A stretch of DNA of 24,397 nt from a virus. The notes under the pieces were generated by a model. The model was not told the origin of the DNA and ran no database searches. It saw nothing but the letters and a program-made list of their open reading frames with translations. This document shows positions 9,195 to 23,140 of this stretch, piece by piece; within the stretch, counting starts at the first letter, position 1, and every line of letters begins with the position of its first letter. The DNA lies in the IMG/VR virus record IMGVR_UViG_3300028027_000232, positions 1 to 24,397 of that record; one strand, given 5' to 3'. A program made the translations under genes and the position numbers.

Positions 9195-9196
9195 AT

Positions 9197-9272: not shown

Positions 9273-9280
9273 ATATAAAA

Positions 9281-10052: not shown

Positions 10053-10121
10053 GTAAAAGGAGAGTATCGGAGATTTCTCAGCTTAACTAGTATTTTTGCT
10101 TTAGTCCCGTCAACTCTATAG

Positions 10122-10195
10122 TGGCTGCCCGACATGGATTCGAACCATGACTAGACGAGTCAAAGTCGTCTGTGCTGCCATTACACAATCAGGCA
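10122..10195 (-). tRNA. tRNA-Gln(UUG), copy 1
   Basis: Acceptor TGCCTGA/TCGGGCA, anticodon stem GACGA/TCGTC with loop CTTTGAC, T-loop TTCGAAT, G73 and CCA. It starts one base after the stop codon of the 85-residue gene upstream. Confidence 0.93.
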
Positions 10196-10196
10196 A

Positions 10197-10454
10197 TCAA
10201 CCAATCTTATTAAAGCCTATTTCTTTTAGGCACTTTAAAATATGAATAGCTTTGTCAAAATCGCCGCAATCTATTGCAGCCATCAAAGCTTTTTTGAGAT
10301 CATATACAACATCAACATCGGCACCGGCAAAAAATCCAGCAGCACTTGTGCTCATAGATATTGGACTATTTTTGCTATATATCTTAGCCGCAGTTTGAAT
10401 GTTTACTGGAGAACTATTTGCTCCAGCCGATGATTGTATTGGTGATATAGTCAT
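10197..10454 (-). CDS. Small protein, unknown function
   Basis: An 85-residue protein. The N-terminal half is Ser/Ala/Pro-rich and probably disordered (MTISPIQSSAGANSSPV); the C-terminal half is helical (DLKKALMAAIDCGDFDKAIHIL) and looks like a helix-turn-helix of a repeat such as TPR. I start at MTISPI; the upstream part of the frame reads as AT-rich leader sequence. There is no Shine-Dalgarno, and the region before the ATG is a dense run of TATAT. The stop lies one base from tRNA-Gln(UUG), so the mRNA is presumably separated from the tRNA by 5'-end processing. No family recognised. Confidence 0.6.
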   Translation of the reverse strand: MTISPIQSSAGANSSPVNIQTAAKIYSKNSPISMSTSAAGFFAGADVDVVYDLKKALMAAIDCGDFDKAIHILKCLKEIGFNKIG

Positions 10455-10508
10455 ATATAATATATATAGCATATAATATATCGTAAATATACACCTCGTA
10501 TTTTTTAT

Positions 10509-10820
10509 AATCAAAATAATTAACGTCCAACCGATGGGTTCGCACCACGAGAGGTTCCTGTGTCAACTGCACCTCTTTGCTATTCGACTTTAACGTATCG
10601 GACGTTTAACTCCGGTAATTAATCGGAATCAAAATAATTGGGTAAGGAGGTGCGCTCTTACCCCCTACTAGGCTTGCAATCACCGGCACTCGGCTAGCCT
10701 CACTGAAGGGCGGTTACCTAACGTAGAAAAATATGAAAGGGTGTTTGGTCATGTGTGCGTATTAGGCTACGTGAACCCACCGCGTATGTCCGGTGGCAGT
10801 ACCCTTTACCCTCTGTAAAA
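10509..10820. other. Modular gap with three cloverleaf-sized elements
   Basis: No coding sequence. A 13-base repeat (AATCAAAATAATT) occurs at 10509-10521 and again at 10627-10639, each just before an inverted-repeat-closed unit: 10522-10606 (AACGTCC/GGACGTT) and 10638-10721 (TTGGGTAA/TTACCTAA, one mismatch). A third unit is 10736-10807 (AAAGGGT/ACCCTTT, containing CCACCG/CGGTGG with an 8-base loop). On the minus strand the first has a near-standard T-loop (TGCGAAC). The others have no standard loops. None encodes CCA. Confidence 0.4.
10522..10606 (-). ncRNA. tRNA-like element, expanded anticodon-position loop
   Basis: Minus strand: 7-bp acceptor-like stem AACGTCC/GGACGTT. A central stem AGAGGT/ACCTCT carries a 15-base loop where a 7-base anticodon loop would be. 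The T-arm-like hairpin has loop TGCGAAC and one bulge. No CCA. Probably derived from a tRNA; no anticodon can be assigned. Confidence 0.35.
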
Positions 10821-10895
10821 TGGCGGGATGGACGAGATTCGAACTCGCAGTCTACAGCGTGACAAGCTGTTGCTTCACCATTAAGCTACCACCCC
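10821..10895 (-). tRNA. tRNA-Asp(GUC)
   Basis: Acceptor GGGGTGG/CCATCCC, anticodon stem ACAGC/GCTGT with loop TTGTCAC, T-loop TTCGAAT, G73 and CCA. Confidence 0.94.
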
Positions 10896-11040
10896 TAAAA
10901 TTGAAGCCCGTTGCAGGAAGTTATTTCAACGTGCATTTAAATATCCTTTCGGTCCTGTTTTGTCTGATCAGACTAAAATTGACGCAGCCATTATTGTCAT
11001 TGATATAAATCAATAGGACTACTGTGTATGTTAAAATTAT

Positions 11041-11112
11041 ACTCATGATAGGCGAGATGGTTGGCGGTTTCCCGTGCCATCTACCAACTTTCCTCCCTGT
11101 GGAGGCATGAGT
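11041..11112. ncRNA. Candidate cloverleaf-sized structured RNA
   Basis: 72 bases closed by ACTCATG/CATGAGT (7 bp, perfect). A CCTCC-CTGT-GGAGG hairpin abuts the 3' strand of the closing stem on the plus strand, as a T-arm would, but with a 4-base loop. GATGG/CCATC or GTTGG/CCAAC can form the middle arm. No canonical tRNA loop on either strand. Confidence 0.3.
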
Positions 11113-11874
11113 TATTTGAAGAGTGTGCTTTTACGCCAAAAGAGCTGTCACCGTTTCGCGGCCAAATATATAACAACTATATTTGCGCTTACATTTTCGG
11201 CACCGAGCTAAGGTCAATTCCCTAGTTCTTATCGGTTCAATCGTCTGAATTGCCTCCGAGCAAAACCATTATAGTTGGTAATGGGAAATGCAGAATTCAA
11301 GAATTCATCGCTGCACTTTTACTTGCATGGAGTACGGACTCTACTCATTATAGGATTGCTGCCTCTAGGCCAACCTCCTCATCAAAAATTTTTGAATAGG
11401 TGTAGCTTTGCTTTATATGACTACACTATAGCGAGTTTCTTAGTTGCGCATAGATTCCAACAAGTTTAATGTTTCCCAATAAACCTATTGTTATGAACCC
11501 AGAGGCTTTTCGTTACTTCCTTGTTTTTCCGCTGACGGTTAGACCCCATGCTCGTACCGAAGATGGAAACAATCTTCTACACTCCGAGCTGCTATTCAAA
11601 ATTAATTTGAGTCGGATAGGGCTTGATACCTATTGATGACATTGAATCTGACCCGATCTATTAGGTAGTCATCGCTTCGTTTCAGAGGCACAGCTTTATG
11701 TACACTATACTGTGCGTAATAGAACTTCTCAAGGCTGCATGTCCTTCCACGCTGCCGCTCAAAATTAATTACTACATCACCACGCGCTACCCATCCCTGT
11801 TTAACGTTCAAGTTTGACTTGTCATACACTTGAACTTCGGGCCAAAGCCTTGTCCGTGTGTAGTAAATTGGTTC

Positions 11875-11927
11875 CTTCTGCCATACAAGTCTTCCGGAGC
11901 TTTCCAGAAGATAAATGCACTTGTATG
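11875..11927. ncRNA. Candidate H-type pseudoknot
   Basis: CTTCTG (11875-11880) pairs with CAGAAG (11905-11910), and CATACAAG (11882-11889) pairs with CTTGTATG (11920-11927). The two pairings interleave, 6 and 8 bp, both perfect. The strand is unknown. Convincing only if covariation is found in relatives. Confidence 0.35.
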
Positions 11928-12052
11928 CGTTACACTCTTAAACCCCCTAAAGGAACGCAACCTTTTAAATATATGATTGCCCAGTTTCGTAGCAACATGG
12001 AGCTTACCTTAGTCGGCGAGGCTGTAACGGTCTGCATAAACACAGAAGAAAT

Positions 12053-12131
12053 TGGTGGCGATACTCGGGAGTCGAACCGAGCTTTTGATGTTGAAAACAT
12101 CCTGTCCTTTCCAAACATAGACGATATCGCC
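12053..12131 (-). tRNA. tRNA-Glu(UUC), copy 1
   Basis: Acceptor GGCGATA/TATCGCC, anticodon stem GATG/CATC with loop TTTTCAA, T-arm with loop TTCGACT, A73 and CCA. A73 is less usual than G73 for Glu. Confidence 0.87.
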
Positions 12132-12245
12132 GTAAAAGTTAAAGAATATATTCGCGTTCTAATGCAACTTCGCAGCCGCCCGCTTATATATCCTCAGTCA
12201 TATCCCTTACTAACATGTATTGTATAGGATTACTGTTTGCAAAAT

Positions 12246-12321
12246 TGGTAGCCCCACCGGGTCACGATCCCGGCTCTCTTGCTTGAAAGGCAAGCGAACT
12301 CAACCATTATTCTATAGGGCC
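12246..12321 (-). tRNA. tRNA-Glu(UUC), copy 2
   Basis: Anticodon stem CTTGC/GCAAG with loop CTTTCAA; T-stem CCGGG/CCCGG with loop ATCGTGA, which departs from TTCRA; A73 and CCA. Acceptor with two G-U pairs. Confidence 0.88.
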
Positions 12322-12326
12322 AAAAA

Positions 12327-12403
12327 TGGTGCTTATGGAAGGATTCGAACCTTCAACCTACAGATTCGTAATCTGTTGCTCTATCCAGTTGAGCTACACA
12401 AGC
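12327..12403 (-). tRNA. tRNA-Arg(ACG)
   Basis: Acceptor GCTTGTG/CATAAGC, anticodon stem ACAGA/TCTGT with loop TTACGAA (A34 normally becomes inosine), D-loop with GGA, T-loop TTCGAAT, A73 and CCA. Confidence 0.93.
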
Positions 12404-12408
12404 ATAAA

Positions 12409-12484
12409 TGGTCAGTGTGACAGGACTCGAACCTGCATAATTTCCGTTCCAAGCGGAATCGCCAGCCTTTGGCACCACACACTG
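12409..12484 (-). tRNA. tRNA-Pro(UGG), copy 2
   Basis: Acceptor CAGTGTG/CACACTG, anticodon stem TTCCG/CGGAA with loop CTTGGAA (A37 rather than the G37 typical of Pro and present in copy 1), T-loop TTCGAGT, A73 and CCA. Confidence 0.88.
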
Positions 12485-12569
12485 ATAAAAATTGGGTGCT
12501 CTGATTTTTCCAATTGAAAGAGTCGTATGTCACTCTATCTTCTTTTGGTCCGAAACACGAATACGAAAA

Positions 12570-12652
12570 TGGAAGCAGAGATGTGAATCGAACACATCAT
12601 ACCTTTCGGCTGCGTTATGAGCGCAGTTAGCGTCCCTTGGCTTGTCTCTGCT
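12570..12652 (-). tRNA. Class II tRNA with CAU anticodon
   Basis: Acceptor AGCAGAG/CTCTGCT, anticodon stem CTGCG/CGCAG with loop CTCATAA, and a 12-base variable region containing CC-GAAA-GG. T-loop TTCGATT, U73, CCA. CAU normally belongs to class I Met or Ile tRNAs; a class II body is characteristic of Leu, Ser and Tyr. Its amino acid is therefore uncertain. Confidence 0.85.
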
Positions 12653-12658
12653 ATAAAA

Positions 12659-12734
12659 TGGTGGTGCCCGTGGGAGTCGAACCCACCTTATACGGATTAA
12701 AAGTCCGCTGCATTAACCGCTCTGCCAGAGCACC
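12659..12734 (-). tRNA. tRNA-Lys(UUU), copy 1
   Basis: Acceptor GGTGCTC/GGGCACC, anticodon stem GCGGA/TCCGT with loop CTTTTAA, T-loop TTCGACT, A73 and CCA. Standard class I. Confidence 0.93.
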
Positions 12735-12746
12735 ATGTTTAAAAAT

Positions 12747-12830
12747 TGGTGGTGTCGGTGGGACTCGAACCCACGATGTTTATATTTCCGGTTAAAAGCC
12801 GGAACCAATCGCCGCTATGGGGACGACACC
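12747..12830 (-). tRNA. tRNA-Lys(UUU), copy 2, long variable loop
   Basis: Acceptor GGTGTCG/CGACACC, anticodon stem TCCGG/CCGGA with loop CTTTTAA, T-loop TTCGAGT, A73, CCA. The variable loop is 12 bases, mostly A and T, and the D-loop AGCGGCGA is shared with tRNA-Lys(CUU) at 14961, so the two form an unusual subfamily. Confidence 0.9.
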
Positions 12831-12933
12831 ATAAAAGTTTAGTAAGTTTAAACTATTACCCCATTGCCACTCAAAGTTTGGGGAAACCCGAATGAGCGAG
12901 CCTATTAATTGCCCGCCGATTAAACCTACAAAT
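12831..12933. other. Spacer with GAAA-tetraloop hairpin
   Basis: A unit closed by GTTTAA/TTAAAC (about 12848-12925) containing a TTTGGG-GAAA-CCCGAA hairpin on the plus strand. No gene. Confidence 0.3.
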
Positions 12934-13009
12934 TGGCTGGATAGGTAGGGATCGAACCTACGACCTACGCATTAACAGTGCGCCGCTACTGCCACTGAGC
13001 TACTATCCA
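12934..13009 (-). tRNA. tRNA-Asn(GUU), copy 1
   Basis: Acceptor TGGATAG/CTATCCA, anticodon stem GCGCA/TGCGT with loop CTGTTAA, T-loop TTCGATC, G73 and CCA. Confidence 0.94.
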
Positions 13010-13015
13010 GTAAAA

Positions 13016-13090
13016 TGGCTGCGAAAAATGGACTTGAACCATTACCTAAACGCTTAACAGGCGCTCGTGCTACATTAACACTATATCGCA
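13016..13090 (-). tRNA. tRNA-Asn(GUU), copy 2
   Basis: Acceptor TGCGATA/TTTCGCA with one mismatch, anticodon loop CTGTTAA, T-loop TTCAAGT, G73 and CCA. It differs from copy 1 everywhere except the anticodon loop and discriminator. Confidence 0.9.
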
Positions 13091-13097
13091 ATAAAAT

Positions 13098-13171
13098 TGG
13101 CTGAGATACTTGGAATCGAACCAAGACTAAGAGTTTCAAAGACTCCTTTGCTACCACTACAACATATCCCA
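13098..13171 (-). tRNA. tRNA-Gln(UUG), copy 2
   Basis: Acceptor TGGGATA/TATCTCA, anticodon stem GGAGT/ACTCT with loop CTTTGAA, T-loop TTCGATT, G73 and CCA. Confidence 0.93.
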
Positions 13172-13182
13172 ATAAAAATGAA

Positions 13183-13252
13183 GCAGTGTGACGGGTTACA
13201 TTCACCCATATTACTAAGTCACCGAGTTCATTGAATTCGGCTACCACACTAC
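13183..13252. ncRNA. Candidate two-hairpin RNA in tRNA spacing
   Basis: Occupies exactly one slot between tRNA-Gln and tRNA-Phe, with the same AT-rich linkers. Closed by GCAGTGT/ACACTAC (7 bp with one G-U). Inside, GGGT-TACATTC-ACCC and an 8-bp hairpin CCGAGTTC-ATT-GAATTCGG replace the three tRNA arms. No CCA. Strand uncertain. Confidence 0.4.
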
Positions 13253-13258
13253 ATAAAA

Positions 13259-13334
13259 TGGTGGGAGCTGTTGGAATTGAACCAACTTCTTCGCATCTTC
13301 AGTGCGACGTGAGGACCGCCTTCACCAAACTCCC
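13259..13334 (-). tRNA. tRNA-Phe(GAA)
   Basis: Acceptor GGGAGTT/AGCTCCC, anticodon stem TCGCA/TGCGA with loop CTGAAGA, T-loop TTCAATT, A73 and CCA. Confidence 0.94.
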
Positions 13335-13384
13335 GTAAATAGTTTTGATAATGTATGGTTGGCTTGCTCAACCCACCCTACAAG

Positions 13385-13458
13385 TAGTTGGCCGGACTTC
13401 GAACCCAGTTACACGTCTTCCATATGCCGTAAGTTTTTAGAGACGAAAACACACACTA
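13385..13458 (-). tRNA. tRNA-like gene with 22-base anticodon-position loop
   Basis: A good T-arm (CTGGG-TTCGAAG-TCCGG) directly abuts acceptor strand CCAACTA. A 5-base variable loop leads to a perfect CGTCT/AGACG stem, which carries 22 bases instead of 7. The acceptor pairs at five of seven positions and the D-arm is reduced to about six bases. No CCA. Clearly tRNA-derived, probably non-functional or divergent. Confidence 0.45.
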
Positions 13459-13468
13459 TCAAAATTAA

Positions 13469-13546
13469 AGGTCGAGCCAAGAAAGGTGGCTGCTGGTTAT
13501 TAACCAGCCGTTTCATCAAATCGCACGTATTTGTTCTGTTCGACCT
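13469..13546. ncRNA. Candidate cloverleaf-like structured RNA
   Basis: Closed by AGGTCGA/TCGACCT (7 bp, perfect) with three internal hairpins: GCCA/TGGC (7-base loop), CTGGTT-ATT-AACCAG, and CAAAT/ATTTG (7-base loop). No standard tRNA loop motif on either strand, no CCA. Confidence 0.35.
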
Positions 13547-13550
13547 AAAG

Positions 13551-13628
13551 TGGTAGGCATGGTGGGACTCGAACCCACAGAATTTTCATTTTGAATGAAA
13601 CACGGTTATCCAGTTACGTCACACGCCC
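13551..13628 (-). tRNA. Class I tRNA with CAA (Leu) anticodon
   Basis: Acceptor GGGCGTG/CATGCCT, D-arm ACG/CGT with D-loop AACTGGATA, anticodon stem TTTCA/TGAAA with loop TTCAAAA, 5-base variable loop, T-loop TTCGAGT, A73, CCA. The anticodon reads Leu UUG, but the body is class I and resembles an Arg tRNA. A class II Leu(CAA) tRNA is also present at 372. Confidence 0.85.
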
Positions 13629-13635
13629 ATAAAAA

Positions 13636-13713
13636 TGGTAGCCATGGAGGGACTCGAACCCCCAACATTTACGTTCTAAGCGTAACACGACTATCCAGTT
13701 GCGTCACATGGCC
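13636..13713 (-). tRNA. Class I tRNA with UAG (Leu) anticodon
   Basis: Sister of the preceding gene: acceptor GGCCATG/CATGGCT, same D-arm, anticodon stem TTACG/CGTAA with loop CTTAGAA, 5-base variable loop, T-loop TTCGAGT, A73, CCA. A class II Leu(UAG) tRNA also exists at 786. Confidence 0.86.
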
Positions 13714-13725
13714 ATAAAATATTGA

Positions 13726-13827
13726 TTCGCATGGTTGGATTTGAACCAACGGCCCGTGCTTTATCCCACTTTTGCGGTGTCATTTACCATCATAGGGAGC
13801 ACTGATCTACCACTGAACTACACACGA
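13726..13827 (-). tRNA. Interrupted tRNA: 37-base anticodon-position loop
   Basis: Acceptor TCGTGTG/CATGCGA, D-arm, 5-base variable loop and T-arm GTTGG-TTCAAAT-CCAAC are all standard. The anticodon stem GTGCT/AGCAC encloses 37 bases rather than 7, including a nested TCCC/GGGA pairing. CCA is not encoded (A73 followed by TCA). A 30-base insertion or short intron is possible; the anticodon cannot be stated. Confidence 0.6.
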
Positions 13828-13830
13828 AAC

Positions 13831-13906
13831 TGGTGCAGTAGGCGGGACTTGAACCCGCAGACCTCTTCGTTGGCAACGAAGCATTCTACCATTGAACTAC
13901 TACTGC
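13831..13906 (-). tRNA. tRNA-Gly(GCC)
   Basis: Acceptor GCAGTAG/CTACTGC, anticodon stem CTTCG/CGAAG with loop TTGCCAA, T-loop TTCAAGT, A73 and CCA. Confidence 0.94.
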
Positions 13907-13912
13907 ATAAAT

Positions 13913-13988
13913 TGGTGGCGATGGTAGGACTCTAACCTACAACCTGCTGTTTCGAAGACAGTCGCTCTATACATTGAGCTACATCGCC
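13913..13988 (-). tRNA. tRNA-Arg(UCG)
   Basis: Acceptor GGCGATG/CATCGCC, anticodon loop CTTCGAA, T-loop TTAGAGT (variant), A73 and CCA. Confidence 0.91.
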
Positions 13989-13994
13989 ATAAAA

Positions 13995-14069
13995 TGGAGC
14001 CAGATGCGAGAGTCGAACTCGCTTTTCAACTTTACAAGAGTTGCACATCACCACTTATGTTTATCCGGC
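13995..14069 (-). tRNA. tRNA-Thr(UGU)
   Basis: Acceptor GCCGGAT/ATCTGGC, anticodon stem CAACT/AGTTG with loop CTTGTAA, T-loop TTCGACT, U73 and CCA. Related to tRNA-Thr(CGU) at 5714. Confidence 0.93.
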
Positions 14070-14080
14070 ATATATAAATT

Positions 14081-14168
14081 TGGCGGAAGGAGAGGGATTC
14101 GAACCCCCGGAAACTTGCGCTTCGGGAGTTTAGTAAACTCCTGCTTTAAGCCACTCAGCCATCCTTCC
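14081..14168 (-). tRNA. tRNA-Ser(ACU)
   Basis: Class II tRNA: acceptor GGAAGGA/TCCTTCC, anticodon stem GGAGT/ACTCC with loop TTACTAA (anticodon ACU, rare), long variable arm, T-loop TTCGAAT, G73 and CCA. Confidence 0.9.
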
Positions 14169-14179
14169 GTATTCTAAAA

Positions 14180-14265
14180 TGGTGGGCACGCTTGGACTCG
14201 AACCAAGGGTTATCCGAAGAGGGGAGATTTACAGTCTCCTGCAATAGCCGCTATGCGACGCGCCC
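14180..14265 (-). tRNA. tRNA-Tyr(GUA)
   Basis: Class II tRNA: acceptor GGGCGCG/CGTGCCC, anticodon stem GGAGA/TCTCC with loop CTGTAAA, variable arm, T-loop TTCGAGT, A73 and CCA. Confidence 0.94.
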
Positions 14266-14275
14266 GAAAATAATC

Positions 14276-14366
14276 AGTCAGAGCTGGTAAATCTCCAGTT
14301 CGCATTAGAATCATGACTTCAATGCTTGCCTTAAGAACGACTTTCCTCGTCCTTGTACTCCTGACT
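14276..14366. ncRNA. Candidate structured RNA, 91 bases
   Basis: Closed by AGTCAG/CTGACT. Contains CTGG-TAAATCT-CCAG (7-base loop), GTTC-GCATT/AATGC-GAAC, and ACGA/TCGT hairpins, roughly a cloverleaf, without tRNA consensus bases or CCA. A nested hairpin GTCATT(TTGAG/CTCAA)AATGAC follows at about 14374-14404. Confidence 0.3.
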
Positions 14367-14424
14367 AAAAGTTGTCATTTGAGTCAACCTCAATTTCGCC
14401 AATGACGTGGCGTTTGCAAAATGG

Positions 14425-14486
14425 TGTACACCGTTCATGCTTTTTGTCATGAATCTTCGATTTGGTTGGATACCAAACCTAGTACA
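14425..14486. ncRNA. Candidate structured RNA (family member 2)
   Basis: TGTAC/GTACA closes two hairpins, TTCATG/CATGAA (8-base loop) and TTTGGT-TGGAT-ACCAAA. The second hairpin and its flanks match the element at 2452-2472 over about 20 bases. It lies immediately upstream of tRNA-Gly(UCC). Confidence 0.4.
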
Positions 14487-14489
14487 AAG

Positions 14490-14564
14490 TGGAGCACCGG
14501 ACAGGATTCGAACCTGCAACAGCCTGTTTGGAAAACAGGGACTCTACCATTGAGCTACCGATGC
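14490..14564 (-). tRNA. tRNA-Gly(UCC)
   Basis: Acceptor GCATCGG/CCGGTGC, anticodon stem CCTGT/ACAGG with loop TTTCCAA, T-loop TTCGAAT, U73 and CCA. Starts five bases after the holin stop codon. Confidence 0.94.
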
Positions 14565-14569
14565 AAAAA

Positions 14570-14887
14570 TTATTTTTTATTTAAGAAATCTTCTGGTTTC
14601 TTAGCAAACTTCTTTGAAAGAAGTGTTAAACCTTGAAGGATTTCTGGACTTATCACACCAGTTATGCCATAACTGATTGCTTTTGTCAAGCTACTTACTT
14701 CAACTTGTTCTAAAATAAACCAAGCTATTGTAGAACATATCGCCGCCGCGATGATTCGTTTGATTTGTTCAGTATAAGTGCGCTTTACACCATCCATGAA
14801 AGACCTTGCTACCATACCCAGTGCTCCAATCAGAGCAACAATCCATCCGCCTCTTAAAAACTCCATGAGTAAATCTTTTTCTTCCAT
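14570..14887 (-). CDS. Phage holin
   Basis: A 105-residue membrane protein with three hydrophobic segments: GGWIVALIGALGMVARSFM (about 13-31), RIIAAAICSTIAWFILEQ (about 44-61) and a weaker third (KAISYGITGVISPEILQGL, about 69-87), then a basic C-terminal tail. The size, three-helix layout and charged C terminus fit a LydA-like or related holin, which accumulates in the inner membrane and opens it to release an endolysin. No endolysin is next to it. It lies inside the tRNA array between tRNA-Lys(CUU) and tRNA-Gly(UCC), presumably on the same transcript. Upstream, a TGTATTTATTATATA box precedes the start by about 18 bases; no Shine-Dalgarno. Other small membrane proteins are possible but less likely. 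Confidence 0.72.
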   Translation of the reverse strand: MEEKDLLMEFLRGGWIVALIGALGMVARSFMDGVKRTYTEQIKRIIAAAICSTIAWFILEQVEVSSLTKAISYGITGVISPEILQGLTLLSKKFAKKPEDFLNKK

Positions 14888-14960
14888 AAATTATGTTGTG
14901 TATATAATAAATACAACATCTACTTAACAAAACTTTACTTTTCTTCACTTTTTTTAAATT

Positions 14961-15044
14961 TGGTGGTGCCGGTGGGACTCGAACCCACGTTGTTTGTATA
15001 TCTGGTTAAGAGCCAGAGCTATTCGCCGCTATAGGAACAGCACC
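14961..15044 (-). tRNA. tRNA-Lys(CUU), long variable loop
   Basis: Acceptor GGTGCTG/CGGCACC (one G-G mismatch possible), D-stem CTAT/ATAG with loop AGCGGCGA, anticodon stem TCTGG/CCAGA with loop CTCTTAA, 12-base variable loop, T-loop TTCGAGT, A73, CCA. First gene of the array after the late-type promoter. Confidence 0.9.
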
Positions 15045-15058
15045 ATGTTATAAGTTTT

Positions 15059-15066
15059 TATTTATA
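15059..15066 (-). promoter_or_regulatory. T4-type late promoter box
   Basis: Minus-strand TATAAATA, identical to the T4 late promoter octamer. It lies 14 bases before the 5' end of tRNA-Lys(CUU), so transcription would begin about 8 bases before that tRNA and read through the array. Confidence 0.5.
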
Positions 15067-15100
15067 GTCGCAACTTAAAACAACGACTGGAAATTGTTTA

Positions 15101-15148
15101 GAGAAGGACGCTCATTTTACGATCCGTAAAGAATATTGCATCCTTCTC
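15101..15148. other. Two-tier hairpin
   Basis: Perfect 8-bp outer stem GAGAAGGA/TCCTTCTC and a 6-bp inner stem TTTACG/CGTAAA with a 3-base loop, just upstream of the array promoter. Function unknown. Confidence 0.4.
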
Positions 15149-15391
15149 CAACTTTATATTAAAAATAACATATCACTTCGGCCTCACAACAGATAAAACT
15201 CTCTCTGTTGATATTGATTCCCACAAAACGGTCGCTATCGCGCCGGTGGCTATTTTAGTGCTTCGGGGTGCATTTTTACCCATCTAAATTGTACTGTGAA
15301 AAAACTTAAAATTGTTACTCTATCGCCAACTTCACTAACTCTACTTACTTTTTATTATTTGTCAAACTTTTTTTAATAAATCTTCTAAAAT

Positions 15392-15421
15392 AAAAAACCC
15401 ACCTCTTTTTAGGAAGGTGGG
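15392..15421 (-). terminator. Rho-independent terminator
   Basis: Minus-strand CCCACCT/AGGTGGG hairpin with a 10-base loop, followed by TTTTTT. It ends the small transcription unit that starts at about 15590. Confidence 0.85.
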
Positions 15422-15452
15422 GCATTTTAGGTTAGATTTTTTATAATCTCCG

Positions 15453-15566
15453 TTATGCCACACCTTTCATATCACGACCTTCATTGGCTCCTGTTGTCGG
15501 TTGCACAATAAAGCACAAGCTCCAATAGGAGTTTAGATTTTGCGATTTATGTGAAACGTTGTTCAT
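15453..15566 (-). CDS. 37-residue ORF in its own transcription unit
   Basis: A short open frame (MNNVSHKSQNLN ... GRDMKGVA) lying exactly between a sigma70-like promoter (15597-15625) and a terminator (15392-15421). It contains no recognisable domain, and no Shine-Dalgarno precedes the ATG. A CTCC-TATT-GGAG hairpin lies inside it. The roughly 200-base transcript could equally be a small non-coding RNA, with the frame a coincidence. Confidence 0.35.
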   Translation of the reverse strand: MNNVSHKSQNLNSYWSLCFIVQPTTGANEGRDMKGVA

Positions 15567-15596
15567 GATTTGATGCTTTGTTATTTAATAAATACA

Positions 15597-15625
15597 ACTA
15601 TGGTATGAAAAAAATCAAATGTCAA
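15597..15625 (-). promoter_or_regulatory. Sigma70-like promoter
   Basis: Minus strand: -35 TTGACA (15625-15620), 17-base spacer, -10 CATAGT (4 of 6). It points away from the cyclase stop codon into the 37-codon ORF and terminator. Confidence 0.5.
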
Positions 15626-15689
15626 ACACTTTTTTATTAAAAAGATGATATTTTTTCACTTTTTTCGTTTTTATATGCAAAATAGTGGT

Positions 15690-17747
15690 TTATTTGCTCG
15701 TGGCACGATACACTCCGTCCCAATTTTCATCAAGATTGCTGTTTCGTAGTCCCTCTATTCTTTCTATCATCATCTCATAATAGTGTATAAGTTCTTTGTT
15801 ATGTTTCATTAACACATCTGCTGTGCTGATAGCTTTGTCCCAACTCTGTGCTCTGTATTGATTTAAGAATTCAGAATGTACCGAGAATACAGCACTTTGA
15901 AAAGATATTTCTTGGTTTTCCATTATGGTGTAAATTTTTACACCTTCTTTTTTACCTTTGACGGCGATGCAGTCTAGCTCAAAGCATTTATACTCATCTT
16001 TTATCATTTCATATGTTCTTGGTCCAATGATAATACGCACACCGTATGCTTTGCTTTGACCTTCTAATCTAGAAGCAAGATTAACATGGTCGCCAAGACA
16101 AGTATAATCAAATCGTTGCACAGAACCCATATTTCCTACAACAACATCTCCAGTGTTTATACCCAGCCCCATTCCGAATGCGGGAATGCCTTCCTTTTTT
16201 ATTTCTTCATTAAATGCGTCCAATTCTTTAAGCATAGACAACGCAGTTTTAGCAGCATCTTTAGCATGGTTTGGATTGTCCAATGGAGCATTCCAGAAAG
16301 CCATTTGAGCATCGCCGATATATTTGTCTAATGTACCATCATTTGCTAGAATAGCTTTGGTCATAGCTGTCATATATCTGTTCATAATGCCTGTAAGTCC
16401 TTGAACATTCTTACCATAGTGTTCAGATATAGCTGTAAATCCACGAACGTCTGTAAACATTATGCTCAATTCTCTTTCGTCGCCGCCAAGTTGTAGCAAA
16501 CCAGGATTTTTTTGTAGCTTTTCAACGAGTGCAGGTGCGAGGTATGTACCGAACTGCTTCTTGATTTGCATCTTGAGTTTAAACTCCATTACAAATCTCA
16601 TGAATATTGCTCCTACCCACGGTAAAAATGCCGCCATCAATGGCCATGTATAATCTATTAAGTATCCGTTGTTTCTAAATAAATAAAATCCAGCAGCAAC
16701 AATAGCAGTAGTTAATATTTTTACTAGTGCCGCGTTCCAAACATATCCAAGATATGCCGCAGATGTTACTAAAATCAATCCAAGTGTTATACCAACGGCT
16801 AGTTCATATAAATCAAACTCTGCTTTTCTTTCTAGTCTATTTCCATCAACAAGCATTTGTAGTGTTTGCATACTTACTTCATGACCATATGCTATTCCAA
16901 CTGGTGTAGCTACTGTATTACTTAATCCTTCGGCAGTTAGTGCAATAACCACAATCTTTCCTTTTATCTTTGACCAATCATTATCTGTATAAGACATAGT
17001 ATCAAACTTATACTTGAAATTTATCCACACTCTTCCATTAGCATCTGTGTTTATTGGCGGTGTGCCTTTTACTCTAACAGCTTGAATACCCGCATCATTG
17101 ATTTTTGCTTGATAACTTGGTTCTCCACTAAAAACACGAAGTACTTCTAATGGTAGTGTTGGATATGTTTCTTTTTTAACTTGAATTATCAAAGGTAAGC
17201 GGCGAACAACACCATCAAGTTCAGGTGCCGTCAACAACATACCAACCCCAGCAGAAGATTCTCCGATTTCTTTTACAGGTCCAATTGCATTTGGATAATC
17301 ATATAGCCATCCATCAGATTGACCTCCTACAGTTGCCAGTCCTCTTGGTACAGGAACTCCTTTGCCTTTTACAGACGCGGATTGTGATGTAATCACCGGA
17401 ACTTTTTGTAGCATATCTACAAATTCAGCATCTCCACCCATTCTATCTTTTTCTGCAAATATAATAGGAAGCACTACAACGACTGCTTCATTTTCAAATG
17501 CTTTCTTGATACCATTTGCCAGTTCTGTTCTTGGCCACGGCCATTGTCCATTCTTTTCTAAACTATCTTCATCTATCTCTATAACTACAACATTATCACT
17601 TTTAACTTTAGTTTGAGTGCGTTGATAATAGTCCAATCCTTTTAAGCGTATAACTTCTATTGGATACGGGTCTATTACTCGTAGTGCTACTAGAGCGACT
17701 AGTATCAATAAACCAACGCCAAACAGTTTTATCAGATATTTTTTCAT
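15690..17747 (-). CDS. CHASE2-domain adenylate cyclase
   Basis: A 685-residue membrane enzyme predicted to make cAMP. An N-terminal signal-anchor (about 7-25) precedes a periplasmic CHASE2 sensor domain (about 30-300), three transmembrane helices (about 313-337, 340-358, 366-386) and a class III cyclase domain (about 425-605). Catalytic residues are all present: metal-binding Asp433 (FTDVRGF) and Asp479 (YIGDA), adenine-selecting Lys475 and Asp553, and transition-state Asn556 and Arg560 (HVNLASRLEG). The enzyme therefore looks active and ATP-specific. Its ATG overlaps the stop of the FecR gene (ATGA), so the two are translationally coupled; FecR-CHASE2 cyclase pairs are a known arrangement in bacteria. 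Length and domain order are those of bacterial chromosomal homologues. I did not find a terminator directly after it. Confidence 0.92.
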   Translation of the reverse strand: MKKYLIKLFGVGLLILVALVALRVIDPYPIEVIRLKGLDYYQRTQTKVKSDNVVVIEIDEDSLEKNGQWPWPRTELANGIKKAFENEAVVVVLPIIFAEKDRMGGDAEFVDMLQKVPVITSQSASVKGKGVPVPRGLATVGGQSDGWLYDYPNAIGPVKEIGESSAGVGMLLTAPELDGVVRRLPLIIQVKKETYPTLPLEVLRVFSGEPSYQAKINDAGIQAVRVKGTPPINTDANGRVWINFKYKFDTMSYTDNDWSKIKGKIVVIALTAEGLSNTVATPVGIAYGHEVSMQTLQMLVDGNRLERKAEFDLYELAVGITLGLILVTSAAYLGYVWNAALVKILTTAIVAAGFYLFRNNGYLIDYTWPLMAAFLPWVGAIFMRFVMEFKLKMQIKKQFGTYLAPALVEKLQKNPGLLQLGGDERELSIMFTDVRGFTAISEHYGKNVQGLTGIMNRYMTAMTKAILANDGTLDKYIGDAQMAFWNAPLDNPNHAKDAAKTALSMLKELDAFNEEIKKEGIPAFGMGLGINTGDVVVGNMGSVQRFDYTCLGDHVNLASRLEGQSKAYGVRIIIGPRTYEMIKDEYKCFELDCIAVKGKKEGVKIYTIMENQEISFQSAVFSVHSEFLNQYRAQSWDKAISTADVLMKHNKELIHYYEMMIERIEGLRNSNLDENWDGVYRATSK

Positions 17748-18946
17748 CGTTGTATGATATTCACTTTTAGTTTAGATCCGTAATTTAACGGATACTCTTT
17801 TGTGCTATCTTTATCTGTAACTGTGAAGGTTGCGTTCGTATCCACCTTGACTTTGTAAAAAATTACTCCGCTATTGTTGATATACAAAATAGCACTTGTA
17901 CCGTCTGTAGTAAAACCGTTGTTTACTGTTGATGTTGGTACTGTTATTGTAGGAATAACGGAAGTTGTTGCTGCTGCTACTTTCGTAGATATTGCCTCGA
18001 TTATAGATTTGTTTACTTCTGGTTGTAACTTGTTTATATCTAAAGATACAGATGCTAGTGTAGCCGACGCTTCTTGTGTTTGTGCAGATGCAGCCGATTG
18101 TGATTCTTCCGGAGGTGCGGAATTTGCAGATGTGCTATCGACTTGAGCTACGGATGTGGCTCCAGAAGAATTTCCACTTTGTGCGGTTGATGCCGCTTTT
18201 GACTCCGACTTTGTTCCCTTTTTGTTTGATGAGTCGTCAGAGTCTTTACTTATTTGTACAGGAGCTTTCTTTGCTTCTTTTGCAGATTGCGTAACTGATT
18301 TTGGTGTGTCCAATAAAAGTCCGTTGTTTACGCTTGTTTCATCTTCTAAATTTAATAATACGGGAGCAGATGGCACTACATTGGATGAAGCGACCATTGT
18401 TGCTTGATATGCTTTTGTCATTAAAACTGTTCCCAACCCGTTACTAACTTCTATACTGCCGACAACGGGAGGACCAAATTGTGCAAGAGAGGGTAGAAGA
18501 ATAATTAAACTTCTACCCATCTCATCGACTGTAAGAGAAAAGTCAGTACCACGAACTGCGACAGATGCAGTTGGTGTTTTGATTTTAACTTCGTCTCTGC
18601 TATTTTTTGCGATAAGTCCGGAGGCGTATCTTACTGTACCAAGCGATGCTTTCAACCCTATCTTGCCTTTACCGCTTGATGGATCATATACAAATGTGTC
18701 TATAACCAGTTTGCTGAATTCGGTGCATTGAACCCGAGTACCGTCTTCAAAGGTTATTCCAGCCCGTCCTTTTAACGTTTCAATTGTATCATCCATTTCT
18801 ATTCCAACATCAACCTTGCCTTCAATTTTATCTTGGTTTCTTGTCACTTGAGTAGGACCAGTCACCTCGGTAATTTTACCGGCTGCGGCAAATAAGTTGG
18901 AGCAGAATAACGCCCCAGCCAATATCAATATAACTTTTGCAACCAT
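17744..18946 (-). CDS. FecR-domain envelope protein
   Basis: A 400-residue exported protein. A signal peptide covers the first 21 residues or so (LILAGALFCSNLFAAAG). A FecR domain follows at about 25-165, recognisable by the run VGIEMDDTIETLKGRAGI, FEDGTRVQ and the VKIKTPTASVAVRGTDF box. The middle (about 215-300) is a Ser/Ala/Lys-rich low-complexity linker, and the last 60 residues look like a small beta domain (VIFYKVKVDTNATFTVTDKD). In CHASE2-cyclase neighbourhoods such proteins are thought to act as periplasmic partners of the sensor. The start follows an AAGGA sequence that touches the ATG, and the upstream gene's TAA lies four bases away. Role as ligand or anchor for the cyclase is inferred. 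Confidence 0.85.
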   Translation of the reverse strand: MVAKVILILAGALFCSNLFAAAGKITEVTGPTQVTRNQDKIEGKVDVGIEMDDTIETLKGRAGITFEDGTRVQCTEFSKLVIDTFVYDPSSGKGKIGLKASLGTVRYASGLIAKNSRDEVKIKTPTASVAVRGTDFSLTVDEMGRSLIILLPSLAQFGPPVVGSIEVSNGLGTVLMTKAYQATMVASSNVVPSAPVLLNLEDETSVNNGLLLDTPKSVTQSAKEAKKAPVQISKDSDDSSNKKGTKSESKAASTAQSGNSSGATSVAQVDSTSANSAPPEESQSAASAQTQEASATLASVSLDINKLQPEVNKSIIEAISTKVAAATTSVIPTITVPTSTVNNGFTTDGTSAILYINNSGVIFYKVKVDTNATFTVTDKDSTKEYPLNYGSKLKVNIIQR

Positions 18947-18949
18947 TCC

Positions 18950-19753
18950 TTATGGAGTTGGAGGACTGATACCGGTTGTTGGAGCCGCCGGACCTGTTGG
19001 ACCAGTTGTTCCACCAGTTGTCATAGCGGGAGCTGCACCACTTGTAGTTTGTACTACGCGAACGGTGTTTCCACTACCTACCAAACTATATTGGAATGTT
19101 TGTTTTTCTACGCCAGATTGATATACTGTTAGGTCGTTTGTACTTCCTTGGATGGTGACTGTTTGTTCGTGACCATCTTTAGCAGCAACGCCGCCAGTCG
19201 AACCAATTTGAGTAGATTTGACAGTGTTTGAGTTACCAGTGATACTGTAATTCACGTAGTTGTAGTTGGCGTCTTTGATACCAAACTTCAATACGTTAGA
19301 ATTTCCAGTAACATCCAAGATTACGTCAGTGTTATCCATAGTTGCTTTACTGCTGTCGGTGTTGGATGTATGATCAACGGTTACGTCTTTGTTGAACAAT
19401 ACACTGTTGCTATTACCATTTAGAGCAATGTTCATTTTATTGGTTGCTCCGTCAAAGTAATATTTTTGGGTATTGCTATTTCCGGTTGCAACAGACAATA
19501 ATTTCAGATTGTTTGCTCCAGTGATAGAGAAGTCTGTTGTATTGTTGTCGCCCATTTGTCTCATTTCAAACAAGATGTTATCTCCTGTTATGTCAGACGG
19601 TGTTCCGCTAGAAACTCCAATTTTATTGAGGCTTCCTACTTGTATCAACGTCGTGCTACCAGCGGTAGTTATTTGATTTACATATATTTGGTTTTGACCG
19701 TATCCGATACTTGCCAAACATATGAATGCTAGTGTTGTTATTAGTTTCTTCAT
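18950..19753 (-). CDS. Secreted curlin-like repeat protein
   Basis: A 267-residue exported protein, with a signal peptide (KKLITTLAFICLASIGYGQ) and then a beta-solenoid of imperfect repeats marked by G-N-S-N or G-x-x-N at the turns: MGDNNTTDFSITG, TGNSNTQKYYF, NGNSNSVLF, TGNSNVLKFGI, TGNSNTVKSTQ, VGSGNTVRVVQ. These resemble curlin-associated repeats of CsgA/CsgB, though the Ser-x5-Gln-x4-Asn spacing is loose and Gln is less regular. The C terminus is a Thr/Pro/Gly-rich tail (GTTGPTGPAAPTTGIS). Its stop is adjacent to the FecR gene, and its start overlaps csgG's stop. The csgG and csgF genes upstream make it the likely secreted substrate. An amyloid fibre or a non-fibrillar beta-solenoid are both possible. 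Confidence 0.72.
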   Translation of the reverse strand: MKKLITTLAFICLASIGYGQNQIYVNQITTAGSTTLIQVGSLNKIGVSSGTPSDITGDNILFEMRQMGDNNTTDFSITGANNLKLLSVATGNSNTQKYYFDGATNKMNIALNGNSNSVLFNKDVTVDHTSNTDSSKATMDNTDVILDVTGNSNVLKFGIKDANYNYVNYSITGNSNTVKSTQIGSTGGVAAKDGHEQTVTIQGSTNDLTVYQSGVEKQTFQYSLVGSGNTVRVVQTTSGAAPAMTTGGTTGPTGPAAPTTGISPPTP

Positions 19754-20556
19754 AATGCTTTCTTATTAGGGTTGAATTTCCAGAGCTTCATTCTCTCGCC
19801 TTGATTAACTATCTCTATAACGGCTTTGTCTATTGCACTGCGAACAGCAATAGTGTTTGGTTCATTTGCTGTTAATCCTAATTCAGACTCTATAGGCAAT
19901 GTTCCATGCTCATAGAATTTGAATAGATTGCCAGATACTGCAACACTGGAAATTGTCTTGGTAACTGCAACACTTAAAAGTACTTCTCCGGTTTGTACGC
20001 TTACAAATCGTAATGAAACTGTAACTACATCTTTGCGATATTGAGCATTTGATGATATGCCGAGCACACTTGCTCCAGCACCTCCGGTTAAAATGTTTGA
20101 ATCATATCCTATGATACCACCTTCGGCTATAACTCCGGCAAAAAGCATAGGTGTAAGCTTTTCTGCGTTCTTTCCTTGAAATGTTTCTCTAGTTTGACTG
20201 ATCAGTTGTCGCTCTTTGATGATGTTATCAAGATTTGCTCTTTCTAACACTTGAAACCATGCACCGCCACCAGCCAGTCGTAAAGAATCAATCAGCCAAC
20301 TTTCAGCACCTTGTGTAACGGCGGATGAAAATGATGCATACGCATCAGAAACTTTACGCTGTCCTGTTTTATCAGTATATGAATATACCGCAACAGTCAT
20401 TCTCGGTCCTTCCGGTGCAGGAAGTTCCATAAGCTCTTTTTCCAAAGGAGAAGCTTGATACTTTGGTATCTCTAATATTGACGGTTTAGATGGTACGGAT
20501 GCACAACCAGCCAATAGTAGAGGCAAAATGAATATAAGTGCATACTTTTTCATCAT
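19750..20556 (-). CDS. csgG: Curli secretion channel CsgG
   Basis: A 268-residue outer-membrane lipoprotein; E. coli CsgG is of similar length (277). A lipobox (LLLAGC) gives Cys18 of the mature protein. The conserved CsgG body follows: MTVAVYSYTDKTGQRK, WFQVLERANLDNIIKERQLI, FAGVIAEGGIIGYDSN, and VTVSLRFVSVQTGEVLLSV near the C-terminal part. In the family, nine subunits make a channel through which curli subunits leave the cell, and CsgF caps it. The ATG (MMKKYALIF) lies within the sequence TAATGATG that ends csgF, showing translational coupling. The gene lies between csgF and the curlin-like gene. The homology is clear; whether the product works as a secretion pore, or as a lysis pore in a phage, is not. 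Confidence 0.93.
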   Translation of the reverse strand: MMKKYALIFILPLLLAGCASVPSKPSILEIPKYQASPLEKELMELPAPEGPRMTVAVYSYTDKTGQRKVSDAYASFSSAVTQGAESWLIDSLRLAGGGAWFQVLERANLDNIIKERQLISQTRETFQGKNAEKLTPMLFAGVIAEGGIIGYDSNILTGGAGASVLGISSNAQYRKDVVTVSLRFVSVQTGEVLLSVAVTKTISSVAVSGNLFKFYEHGTLPIESELGLTANEPNTIAVRSAIDKAVIEIVNQGERMKLWKFNPNKKAL

Positions 20557-21017
20557 TAGCCAACTGGTATTGGGCTTAAAGAACCGACTGGTACGGTTAT
20601 TTCTGTTGTTGTTCCGGTGGACGGATCTACGATATATAAAGTAGCAAAATCGCCATTGCGTTGCCAAGTAATTGTAGAGCCACCTTGTAAATTGATAACT
20701 CCAAACGTAGCACCGTTAGAATTGAATATCTGGTCGGTTACTTGAGAAGCTAGTTGTGAGTATATTCTAGCCTGTAGATTGTTTATAAACGTGTTTAACG
20801 GCGTATTAGACGCTTGTATCTTGGCTTGTTCAGCTTCTGCTTTGGCCGTGTCTTTTACCGATTGCTTTCTTGTTCTTGCCAAGTTTTCAATCGTCATGGC
20901 GGTGTTGGAGAAATTCACTCCACTAAAAGTAGCCGATCTAAAGCTATGCACCATGTCACTTGCATACGATGTGCAAGCCATTATTATAACTAAAAATATA
21001 TAAAATTTGTGTTTCAT
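20556..21017 (-). CDS. csgF: Curli assembly protein CsgF
   Basis: A 153-residue exported protein, close to E. coli CsgF in size (138). The signal peptide probably ends after YAS (residues 1-20). The N-terminal mature segment SFRSATFSGVNFSN corresponds to the CsgF region that plugs into the CsgG channel. The middle is charged and helical (RKQSVKDTAKAEAEQAKIQ), followed by LNTFINNLQARIYSQL and a beta-rich end (GDFATLYIVDPSTGTTTEITV). The C-terminal match to CsgF is the more convincing part. It heads the operon; a TATAAT-like element is in the very AT-rich upstream stretch 21018-21060. CsgE and the transcription factor CsgD, normally found with it, are absent. Confidence 0.85.
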   Translation of the reverse strand: MKHKFYIFLVIIMACTSYASDMVHSFRSATFSGVNFSNTAMTIENLARTRKQSVKDTAKAEAEQAKIQASNTPLNTFINNLQARIYSQLASQVTDQIFNSNGATFGVINLQGGSTITWQRNGDFATLYIVDPSTGTTTEITVPVGSLSPIPVG

Positions 21018-21080
21018 AGTCAGTTATATATTATATATCATATATATAACCTAGAAACACACAAAGTTTTTATATATACA

Positions 21081-21275
21081 CTACATACATTGGTAATAAT
21101 ATTCAGCCCACATATCTTCCCAATGTTCTTCGCATTCTTTCCAGCAATCGGGGCATAAAGTTATATAATTACGTTCTATTTCAACGTATCTAGTGTTCAT
21201 ATGACCTCTTTTGGCATCTTCGCGGTCACATGGGCCGTGCCAACCTTGGCACTTTAGTTTTATGGGCTGTTCCAT
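21081..21275 (-). CDS. Small cysteine-rich protein
   Basis: A 64-residue protein with paired cysteines (CQGWHGPC and CPDCWKEC) suitable for one zinc site, and an acidic aromatic end (EEHWEDMWAEYYYQC). I start at MEQPIKLKC; the sequence GAATAACATGG around this ATG is the same as at the start of the gene upstream. It lies at the end of the ligase operon, one base after the stop codon of the preceding gene. The chemistry suggests zinc binding, no family recognised. Confidence 0.65.
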   Translation of the reverse strand: MEQPIKLKCQGWHGPCDREDAKRGHMNTRYVEIERNYITLCPDCWKECEEHWEDMWAEYYYQCM

Positions 21276-21276
21276 G

Positions 21277-22113
21277 TTATTCTTCGTCACGACGATGCTC
21301 ATCTTTAGTAGCAATTTTTTTCCATTTGGTCATTGTACTATTCCAAAGTCCATGATTTGAAGTTTGGCTACCAGATCCACAAGTTGGTGCGTAATTGATA
21401 CGCAATATACTAATTATCTGATGAATATATTCAAATTCTGAAAATGTTTTTGCTGTATCTTTACTTGGTGTACTGGCAAAACGCGATGGTGCATTACTCC
21501 AAATTCTGGAGCGATATTTTTCAAGAGATTTTTCAACTTCTTTCTCTATACCCTTGCGAGTATATGTGTCACCGTCTTGTTTTATAAAAATTTTAATAAT
21601 TCCCGCATCTTCACACTTTAATATGTCCACTTCAAGCAAACTTTGCCACACGCTTTCTTTTATCATCATAACCGACACTGCCAGTTTGCATTTGGGATTG
21701 TGTACATAAACTCGCCCGAGTTGTAATGCTTTTAAAATTTCGTCTAAAGTAAAATCTTGTGGAATGGCAAGATCGTGATATTTGTTTTCGCCAACTTTAA
21801 GCCGGATAGCATATTTTTTCAATGCCTCCATAAATTGAGTAAGTTCAGCCTTGTCTTGTCCAGTTTTTTCAGGAATTTTTTTTATTGAGCCATAATCATT
21901 ATATTCGCCGCGAATTGGCAAGCACAATGGTACCCAAAAATTGGTTATATAGCAACCAGAACCACCTTTCGGTAGAACTGGTGCTTCGTCGTTTGGAAAT
22001 CCTTTTTGAGCATTAAAAAGAAAAGGATTTTGAACAATCGGCAAAAACCGAACTTGTTCTCCGTCGTAAATGGTCATTTTACTGACCGCGCATGTTTCGT
22101 TCCAGCATCCCAT
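21277..22113 (-). CDS. Conserved phage protein of unknown function
   Basis: A 278-residue soluble protein beginning MGCWNETCAVSKMTIYDGEQVRFLPI. The opening, MGxWNxTCxxSxxPIxxGxxV, recurs in a family of phage proteins of unknown function; this is from memory of phage genomes. The first 20 residues contain two cysteines that could bind metal. No catalytic motif is clear in the rest; residues about 180-230 are helical and charged. Its ATG follows the RNA ligase stop at a GAATAACATGG junction, so it is the second gene of that operon. The gene after it starts across an identical junction. Confidence 0.75.
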   Translation of the reverse strand: MGCWNETCAVSKMTIYDGEQVRFLPIVQNPFLFNAQKGFPNDEAPVLPKGGSGCYITNFWVPLCLPIRGEYNDYGSIKKIPEKTGQDKAELTQFMEALKKYAIRLKVGENKYHDLAIPQDFTLDEILKALQLGRVYVHNPKCKLAVSVMMIKESVWQSLLEVDILKCEDAGIIKIFIKQDGDTYTRKGIEKEVEKSLEKYRSRIWSNAPSRFASTPSKDTAKTFSEFEYIHQIISILRINYAPTCGSGSQTSNHGLWNSTMTKWKKIATKDEHRRDEE

Positions 22114-22114
22114 G

Positions 22115-23140
22115 TTATTCTTTGTACTTCTCAAGGAAGCGATTTGATATTGTCTTGAAACTCATACGACCTTTAAGAACGTCGCTGTATGTTTCCGTGG
22201 CTGGTCGCCAAACTATTCCTTCGGCGGGAGTGCCGTTGTCATAGTTTAGATTGTTAGCAATGTTCAAAAGATGATTAACATCTTTAGGTTCCATATCATT
22301 GTCAAACTGGATGACACTTTTGGTATCAACAACTTTAAGATTGTGCTTTTGGCCAAACTCAACAAGTTCTTTATATCCAAGGTATTTTCCAGTATCAATG
22401 TCGTATAAGTTGAATAGATATAAATCTACTTCTTTGAAACCCATGCGGTTGCCTTGAATGCCTGGCCCAACCATTTCTCCTTGAATAGAAAGATTGCGAG
22501 GTTCACTACGAAGAATTTCTTCAAGTTTAAGCTTGCGAGCCATCTTCCAATGAGCATTGTCCTCGGTTTCTTTCAAATCGAGGTTGCGAGAACAAACGCC
22601 AAAGTCAGCGTCCCTTCTGTATGCAGTAAAACTGGTGCCATCCATTTTGAGTGTGCCAACCAGCACAAGGTTTTTTGAAACGGCTTCATCAAGGACTCTT
22701 GGTTCAGATTGTAAACGAGGTTCATCGGTTTTATGTAAAAATGCTGGAAAGTTGCCTTTAGCCATACCAGATAGGTGAGCGGGTACAACAGGTTCGTATT
22801 TAGTAACGCCGATGAGTTGTGTAACATCTTGACCCACTTCATATTCACCGGATGGAATAATAGACAATGGCATAGCCAAACCTTGGCTCAATTGTCCACG
22901 AAGTCGTATAGTTTTGATACGCAATGGCTTGGCTGGATCTTTACGAAGATGATCGTTCCATGTAGCTATTGGCAAAACACTGTCAATTTCAAAGTATACA
23001 CACTTATCTCCAACTTGGAACTCTGTTTTCTTTGCAACAAGTTCCCAACCAAGCACTTTAGCAAGTAAAATAGCGTCGGCACCTTCGATTGGTGTTAAAG
23101 AAAGTATGGTTTGAATAGATGCTAGTTTTCTTTCGCTCAT
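22115..23140 (-). CDS. RNA ligase, Rnl5 (DraRnl-like)
   Basis: A 341-residue ATP-dependent RNA ligase. An N-terminal OB domain (about 1-120; SIQTILSLTPIEGADAI, VGDKCVYFEIDSVLP) precedes the nucleotidyltransferase domain, the Rnl5 order typified by the Deinococcus enzyme and opposite to most ligases. Motif I is KMDGTS with Lys165 as the AMP-accepting residue; motif III is in YLFNLYDID, motif IV in AEGIVWRP, and motif V in SFKTISNRFLEK. Such enzymes seal nicks in RNA paired to DNA or RNA. Phages often carry RNA ligases for repair of cleaved tRNAs, a plausible role here. Its promoter (23151-23178) places the start point only a few bases before the ATG, so the message may be leaderless. It heads a three-gene operon. 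Confidence 0.92.
   Translation of the reverse strand: MSERKLASIQTILSLTPIEGADAILLAKVLGWELVAKKTEFQVGDKCVYFEIDSVLPIATWNDHLRKDPAKPLRIKTIRLRGQLSQGLAMPLSIIPSGEYEVGQDVTQLIGVTKYEPVVPAHLSGMAKGNFPAFLHKTDEPRLQSEPRVLDEAVSKNLVLVGTLKMDGTSFTAYRRDADFGVCSRNLDLKETEDNAHWKMARKLKLEEILRSEPRNLSIQGEMVGPGIQGNRMGFKEVDLYLFNLYDIDTGKYLGYKELVEFGQKHNLKVVDTKSVIQFDNDMEPKDVNHLLNIANNLNYDNGTPAEGIVWRPATETYSDVLKGRMSFKTISNRFLEKYKE

Follow-up and report, generated by a model that had tools for sequence, protein, structure and literature searches.

A curli-type secretion module with a putative second-messenger branch in a virus of a jumbo T4-superfamily myophage lineage

What the curli secretion genes carried by some phages do has been an open question since 2020, and it is raised again by five genes at positions 15690–21017 of the IMG/VR virus record IMGVR_UViG_3300028027_000232, a 24-kb record (24,397 nucleotides) analysed over its full length and here called the window. 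These positions had been singled out by a model that read the letters alone (the original prediction). The genes csgF, csgG, curlin-like, FecR and CHASE2 cyclase lie head to tail in this order, from 21017 to 15690 on the − strand. Our reading, held with slightly better than even confidence, is that a jumbo myophage of the T4 superfamily carries here a type VIII (curli) secretion module equipped with a second-messenger branch of its own. Judged from the sequence, its parts are a pore, a pore partner, a curlin-repeat substrate, FecR, a CHASE2 cyclase and a separately transcribed protein with a hydrophobic tail, predicted to bind cyclic nucleoside monophosphates (cNMPs); the last appears to be present only in the virus of the window and a subset of its relatives. 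The five genes are as follows.

20556–21017, − strand: csgF, 153 amino acids, with a signal peptide (PF10614, E = 6e-15; phrog_35372, E = 3e-28).
19750–20556, − strand: csgG, outer-membrane pore lipoprotein, 268 amino acids, lipobox LLAGC (PF03783, E = 4e-48).
18950–19753, − strand: curlin-repeat secreted protein, 267 amino acids (profile match to curlins of the type of phage Melnitz; PDB 8c50).
17744–18946, − strand: FecR-domain protein with a signal peptide, 400 amino acids (PF04773, E = 2e-9; phrog_37870, E = 4e-67).
15690–17747, − strand: CHASE2, transmembrane and class III adenylate cyclase protein, 685 amino acids (PF05226, E = 5e-41; PF00211 (Guanylate_cyc), E = 1e-22).

The original prediction described one tight unit with overlapping or abutting junctions, and this was confirmed at the above coordinates: csgF and csgG share one base (TAATG, the csgG ATG lying on the csgF TAA), the csgG/curlin and FecR/cyclase junctions are 4-base overlaps, and curlin and FecR are spaced by 3 bases, with AAGGA ahead of the FecR ATG. 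The start of csgG was placed at the ATG at 20556, from which the protein reads MMKKYALIFILPLLLAGCASVP, a lipoprotein signal; the mechanically called open reading frame (ORF), starting with TTG at 20667, is too long. The window ORFs that were submitted to Pfam gave no match to CsgE or CsgD, and no Pfam domain was seen in the two ORFs upstream of csgF (21081–21314 and 21277–22134), so no histidine kinase precedes csgF.

A tblastn search against 50,697 phage records recovered the operon genes in Pelagibacter phage HTVC008M and four Methylophilales phages Melnitz (PMC7029224, PMC9004378), ordered csgF, csgG, curlin, FecR, curlin, cyclase. The operon order is that of the window, and protein identity outside the curlins is 35–46%, with 35–37% for CsgF, 45% for CsgG, 35–36% for FecR and 41–42% for the cyclase; unlike the window, these phages have a second curlin gene between FecR and cyclase and no cNMP gene. 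In IMG/VR, where the CsgG of the window reaches 87% identity among the matches listed, at least 580 CsgG and at least 546 cyclase relatives were confirmed. Among the best loci, the order csgF-csgG-curlin-FecR-(curlin)-cyclase was found, with few exceptions, in more than 100 contigs. Recurrence in viral contigs, on which the original prediction was to be checked, was thus found, and because of it a chance arrangement of the five genes is excluded. The closest bacterial CHASE2-cyclase loci, mostly of Alphaproteobacteria, show at most 38% identity; CsgG/CsgF lay beside the cyclase in 0 of the 80 closest, in a cyclase-led scan that would miss curli operons with a very different cyclase, and a FecR gene was present within 10 kb in several of the 80. 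Because of the missing CsgG/CsgF, the block appears not to be common on bacterial chromosomes, as far as such a scan can tell, and the common chromosomal block that had been considered as a refutation was not found.

The five-gene module of the window is of an already published kind, the same order being known for pelagiphages. Genes csgF and csgG were reported in pelagimyophages in PMC7029224 (2020), a lysis role was discussed for the Melnitz pore genes in PMC9004378 (2022), and PMC9599517 (2022) described CsgF-CsgG-CsgA/B-FecR-(CsgA/B)-AC (AC, adenylate cyclase) in pelagi-podophages and pelagi-myophages, with transfer between viral families and with CsgE and CsgD absent from the phage modules. 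The original prediction had known of no phage carrying a curlin substrate together with sensor and cyclase; this does not hold, as the module of PMC9599517 (HTVC023P-type podophages and pelagimyophages), Melnitz and HTVC008M have the same order. The window agrees with that module in its adjacent csgF and csgG over the Pfam cut-offs, its curlin after csgG and its FecR followed by adenylate cyclase, and both belong to a viral clade with alphaproteobacterial-like roots. A histidine kinase before csgF is a feature reported of the podophage form, and its absence from the window does not exclude membership. The window differs in its single curlin gene, the holin-like gene that follows the cyclase and a membrane protein predicted to bind cNMPs, and its jumbo phage represents another capsid lineage. 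In PMC7198788, a csgF-csgG-csgA block is placed in a T4-like marine Bacteroidetes viral genome, which, like the window, has curli genes outside pelagiphages; the part of that paper available makes no mention of FecR, cyclase or cNMP genes. What goes beyond the earlier papers is the jumbo capsid lineage, the subtype with one curlin and a holin-like gene, and the cNMP-binding membrane protein.

Since bacteria commonly have CsgG, FecR and CHASE2 cyclases, the contig might be a fragment of a bacterial chromosome, an explanation to which practically no weight is given. The window is a virus record with 38–39 transfer RNA (tRNA) genes within 15 kb (372–15044, all − strand; ARAGORN, Rfam), a match to the phage RNA ligase phrog_968 and a holin-like gene. 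It is syntenic with a contig of 297,258 bases (G012), at identities of 85% for the RNA ligase, 74% for CsgG, 75% for the cyclase, 90% for the holin-like protein and 81% for the cNMP protein. G012 has 36 tRNAs and a transfer-messenger RNA (tmRNA), and encodes tail sheath, tape measure, portal, major capsid protein, baseplate wedge, DNA polymerase, UvsX and rIIA. Synteny with these structural genes refutes the bacterial fragment and upholds the phage-like genome of the original prediction. The G012 capsid protein is 58–62% identical to those of Flavobacterium phage immuto, Microcystis phage Mel-JY01 and a 484-kb uncultured phage; with the HTVC008M protein it shares just 30%. By gene content and synteny, the virus of the window is assigned to a jumbo T4-superfamily myophage lineage, represented by this 297-kb relative.

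The curlin-like protein of the window alone gave no Pfam match even at E ≤ 10; an identity from Pfam alone, which fails on the single sequence, was rescued by profile comparison. The profile of its family (19 members, two with a Curlin_rpt match) matches the Melnitz and HTVC008M curlins (hhalign 99.5%, E = 2e-22, 212 columns) and PDB 8c50, a curlin-associated-repeat protein (E = 2e-6), and because of these matches the protein is regarded as a real curlin-repeat relative, in line with the earlier claim. Its AlphaFold2 model is repetitive and almost all strands (predicted local distance difference test, pLDDT, 78); Foldseek with this model returned no significant structural match, only weak beta-solenoid look-alikes. 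A curlin-repeat gene with a signal peptide directly follows csgG in essentially every complete viral locus. Curlin_rpt proteins over the Pfam cut-off are encoded in Melnitz (L002) at 12845–13564 and 14623–15639, which contradicts the statement in PMC9004378 that Melnitz is without fibre genes.

The cyclase was found intact, as predicted: in an alignment of 129 viral cyclases it keeps all six residues checked, D and D (metal), K and T (substrate), N and R, the Lys and Thr being substrate residues of the adenylate and not of the guanylate-cyclase type. In the cyclase tree, a quick tree with the bacterial rows on long branches, the viral sequences group together in a single clade, separate from the bacterial ones (Shimodaira–Hasegawa-like approximate likelihood ratio test 100), and the window falls inside a 19-row clade (support 100) that holds all cNMP carriers of the tree and three capsid types. 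The capsids of further contigs with the module are HTVC008M-like or of a third type. Because one cyclase clade spans three capsid types, we infer that the module has probably been exchanged between phage lineages. In G012 (81430–84297; L111:1430–4297) an ORF of 804 bases interrupts the cyclase gene after residue ~590; the insert (83202–84005) looks homing-endonuclease-type, and the C-terminal piece of the cyclase continues as an ORF of its own.

A candidate target for the cyclase product is encoded at the other end of the window; it would supply the cAMP signalling proposed in the original prediction with a specific partner, one not named there.

1187–1843, − strand: cyclic-nucleotide-binding (CNB) domain with hydrophobic C-terminal helices, proposed receptor, 218 amino acids (PF00027, E = 1e-16).

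This protein has the marks of the CNB family: a beta-barrel, a phosphate-binding cassette, and Glu and Arg for the ribose and the phosphate, respectively. The cassette reads FLGEGALVSKAPRNASI; Glu84 and Arg93 do not vary among nine relatives, and the residue after the cassette Arg, considered for a preference between cGMP and cAMP, is Asn. The cassette is followed by a helix, a hydrophobic segment at ~144–170 and a weaker one. The barrel was modelled at pLDDT ~90 and matches structures of cAMP-bound (cyclic AMP-bound) Crp, the PKA regulatory subunit and SthK, and the protein has no helix-turn-helix (HTH) and a membrane tail unlike Crp. No counterpart of the tail was found in 190 alphaproteobacterial genomes, in which matches cover the cNMP domain only and do not extend past about position 156 of 215; among named phages, a single match to the protein was obtained, weak and partial. 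The family has 21 members in IMG/VR, plus one weak partial match. All 11 contigs long enough to tell carry the module, the remaining 10 of the 21 ending too near the gene; several are near-copies, so the linkage counts as ~7 independent cases. Where a contig of the window's subtype extends 18 kb or more 5' of the gene, it holds the module, in five of five cases (G001, G002, G008, G009 and G012), the cyclase being the sole part seen in G008. In six contigs (G017, G022, G023, G024, G025 and G026) the cNMP gene is divergent beside csgF, and in L007 and L162 the two are separated by only some tens of bases, which include the palindrome ATACTTATAAGTAT. The terms 'cyclic nucleotide' and 'cNMP' do not occur in the accessible text of PMC9599517, and the gene is not mentioned in the module literature as far as available. 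Pycsar, too, combines a class III cyclase with a membrane-tailed protein that has a cNMP-binding domain. Unlike the two-gene Pycsar operon, the pair described here is phage-encoded, CHASE2-regulated and tied to a secretion system, and its genes are separated by 14 kb in the window and occupy opposite strands where relatives have the divergent layout. The substrate residues of its cyclase are the Lys and Thr of adenylate cyclases.

Further features near the two transcription units are:

14570–14887, − strand: holin-like small membrane protein, downstream of the cyclase (phrog_6384 holin, E = 3e-7).
1854–1865, − strand: TATATAATATAT, a possible shared promoter, weak, directly upstream of the cNMP gene.
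21026–21037, − strand: TATATAATATAT, a possible shared promoter, weak, directly upstream of csgF.

Three copies of TATATAATATAT are present in the window against 0.01 expected; the third, at 10454 on the + strand, is not before a recognised gene. The holin-like gene lies ~0.8 kb past the cyclase in the window's subtype and has the same position in 20 other loci.

In the families concerned, CsgG forms the pore in the outer membrane with CsgF as partner, and CHASE2 acts as a sensor outside the cytoplasm; cAMP is the product of class III cyclases that have Lys and Thr/Asp, and cNMPs are the ligands of CNB domains. During infection, CsgG and CsgF would assemble in the host outer membrane, and the curlin-like protein would be exported through them and may coat the infected cell or link it to its neighbours. 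FecR and CHASE2 may sense the state of the envelope or of export in the periplasm and report to the cyclase, which would then make cAMP; this would bind the phage's own membrane-anchored receptor and act at the inner membrane, perhaps on lysis timing, a role that the nearby holin-like gene makes attractive. That some large phages have such a complete, self-contained circuit, pairing a CHASE2 adenylate cyclase for envelope sensing with a dedicated membrane receptor for cNMPs, coupled to a curli exporter and acting at the inner membrane, for example on lysis timing, is put forward tentatively, as possible rather than probable.

Several observations weigh against this reading. The catalytic Asn is replaced by Ser in 31 of the 129 viral cyclases, with the other residues kept; the Melnitz cyclase is among them, unlike that of the window, and so are those of two cNMP-carrying phages, L007 and L162. 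Such a change in a quarter of the cyclases argues against a simple cAMP loop everywhere. The membrane tail of the cNMP protein was modelled at low confidence (pLDDT 36–63), and its gene lies beyond the tRNA array, 14 kb from the cyclase. HTVC008M, Melnitz and ten large contigs with the module lack the gene, the cNMP-family (A7) profile having been applied to 32 contigs, so the cyclase–receptor loop would be optional. Melnitz cultures reportedly did not clump (PMC9004378).

With the same exporter, the cyclase might only raise host cAMP, read by a host Crp-type receptor, the cNMP membrane protein being an unrelated nearby traveller. The many module-bearing phages without the cNMP gene, which are the majority, and its remote position in the window agree with this, but we hold it rather unlikely, given the divergent gene beside csgF in six contigs, the module on every sufficiently long cNMP contig, and a protein that has a membrane tail and no HTH, unlike Crp. 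It has also been proposed for Melnitz (PMC9004378) that CsgG/CsgF act as a gated pore or pinholin timing lysis, fibre export being lost. The structural argument in that paper and the holin-like gene downstream of the cyclase in 21 loci, the window included, speak for it; it nevertheless seems improbable, as the curlin-repeat gene is kept with its signal peptide in essentially every complete locus and Melnitz itself has Pfam Curlin_rpt matches. Counter-defence, with the cyclase overproducing, or the cNMP-binding protein sequestering, the cyclic nucleotides of host defences such as Pycsar, is considered very improbable: the cyclase and cNMP domains do score against PADLOC PycC and Pycsar-effector models, but these matches are shared domains only, cyclase and sponge would oppose each other, and the constant linkage to a curli exporter would be unexplained.

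The remainder of the window holds a few observations in their own right. The tRNA at 9117–9193 has the anticodon TCA and, being only 77 nt, is more likely a UGA-reading tRNA than tRNA-Sec; TGA serves as stop in several window genes despite it. A 102-base Rfam tRNA match at 13726–13827 was not called by ARAGORN. At 2878–4615, a GT4-type glycosyltransferase gene overlaps a calcineurin-like phosphoesterase gene, possibly for glycolipid modification. A repetitive Ala/Val-rich protein of 376 amino acids (6927–8057) is kept in G012 (67%), the copies of G012 and G023 being 54% identical.

For the biology of these phages, the curli-linked secretion module with its second-messenger branch, if read correctly, would mean that the cyclase, described in earlier papers without a phage-encoded target, has in a linked membrane receptor a testable partner, which points to the inner membrane as the site of output. 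The occurrence of the module with three capsid types, jumbo phages among them, indicates that it may move as one block and is retained beyond the pelagiphages.

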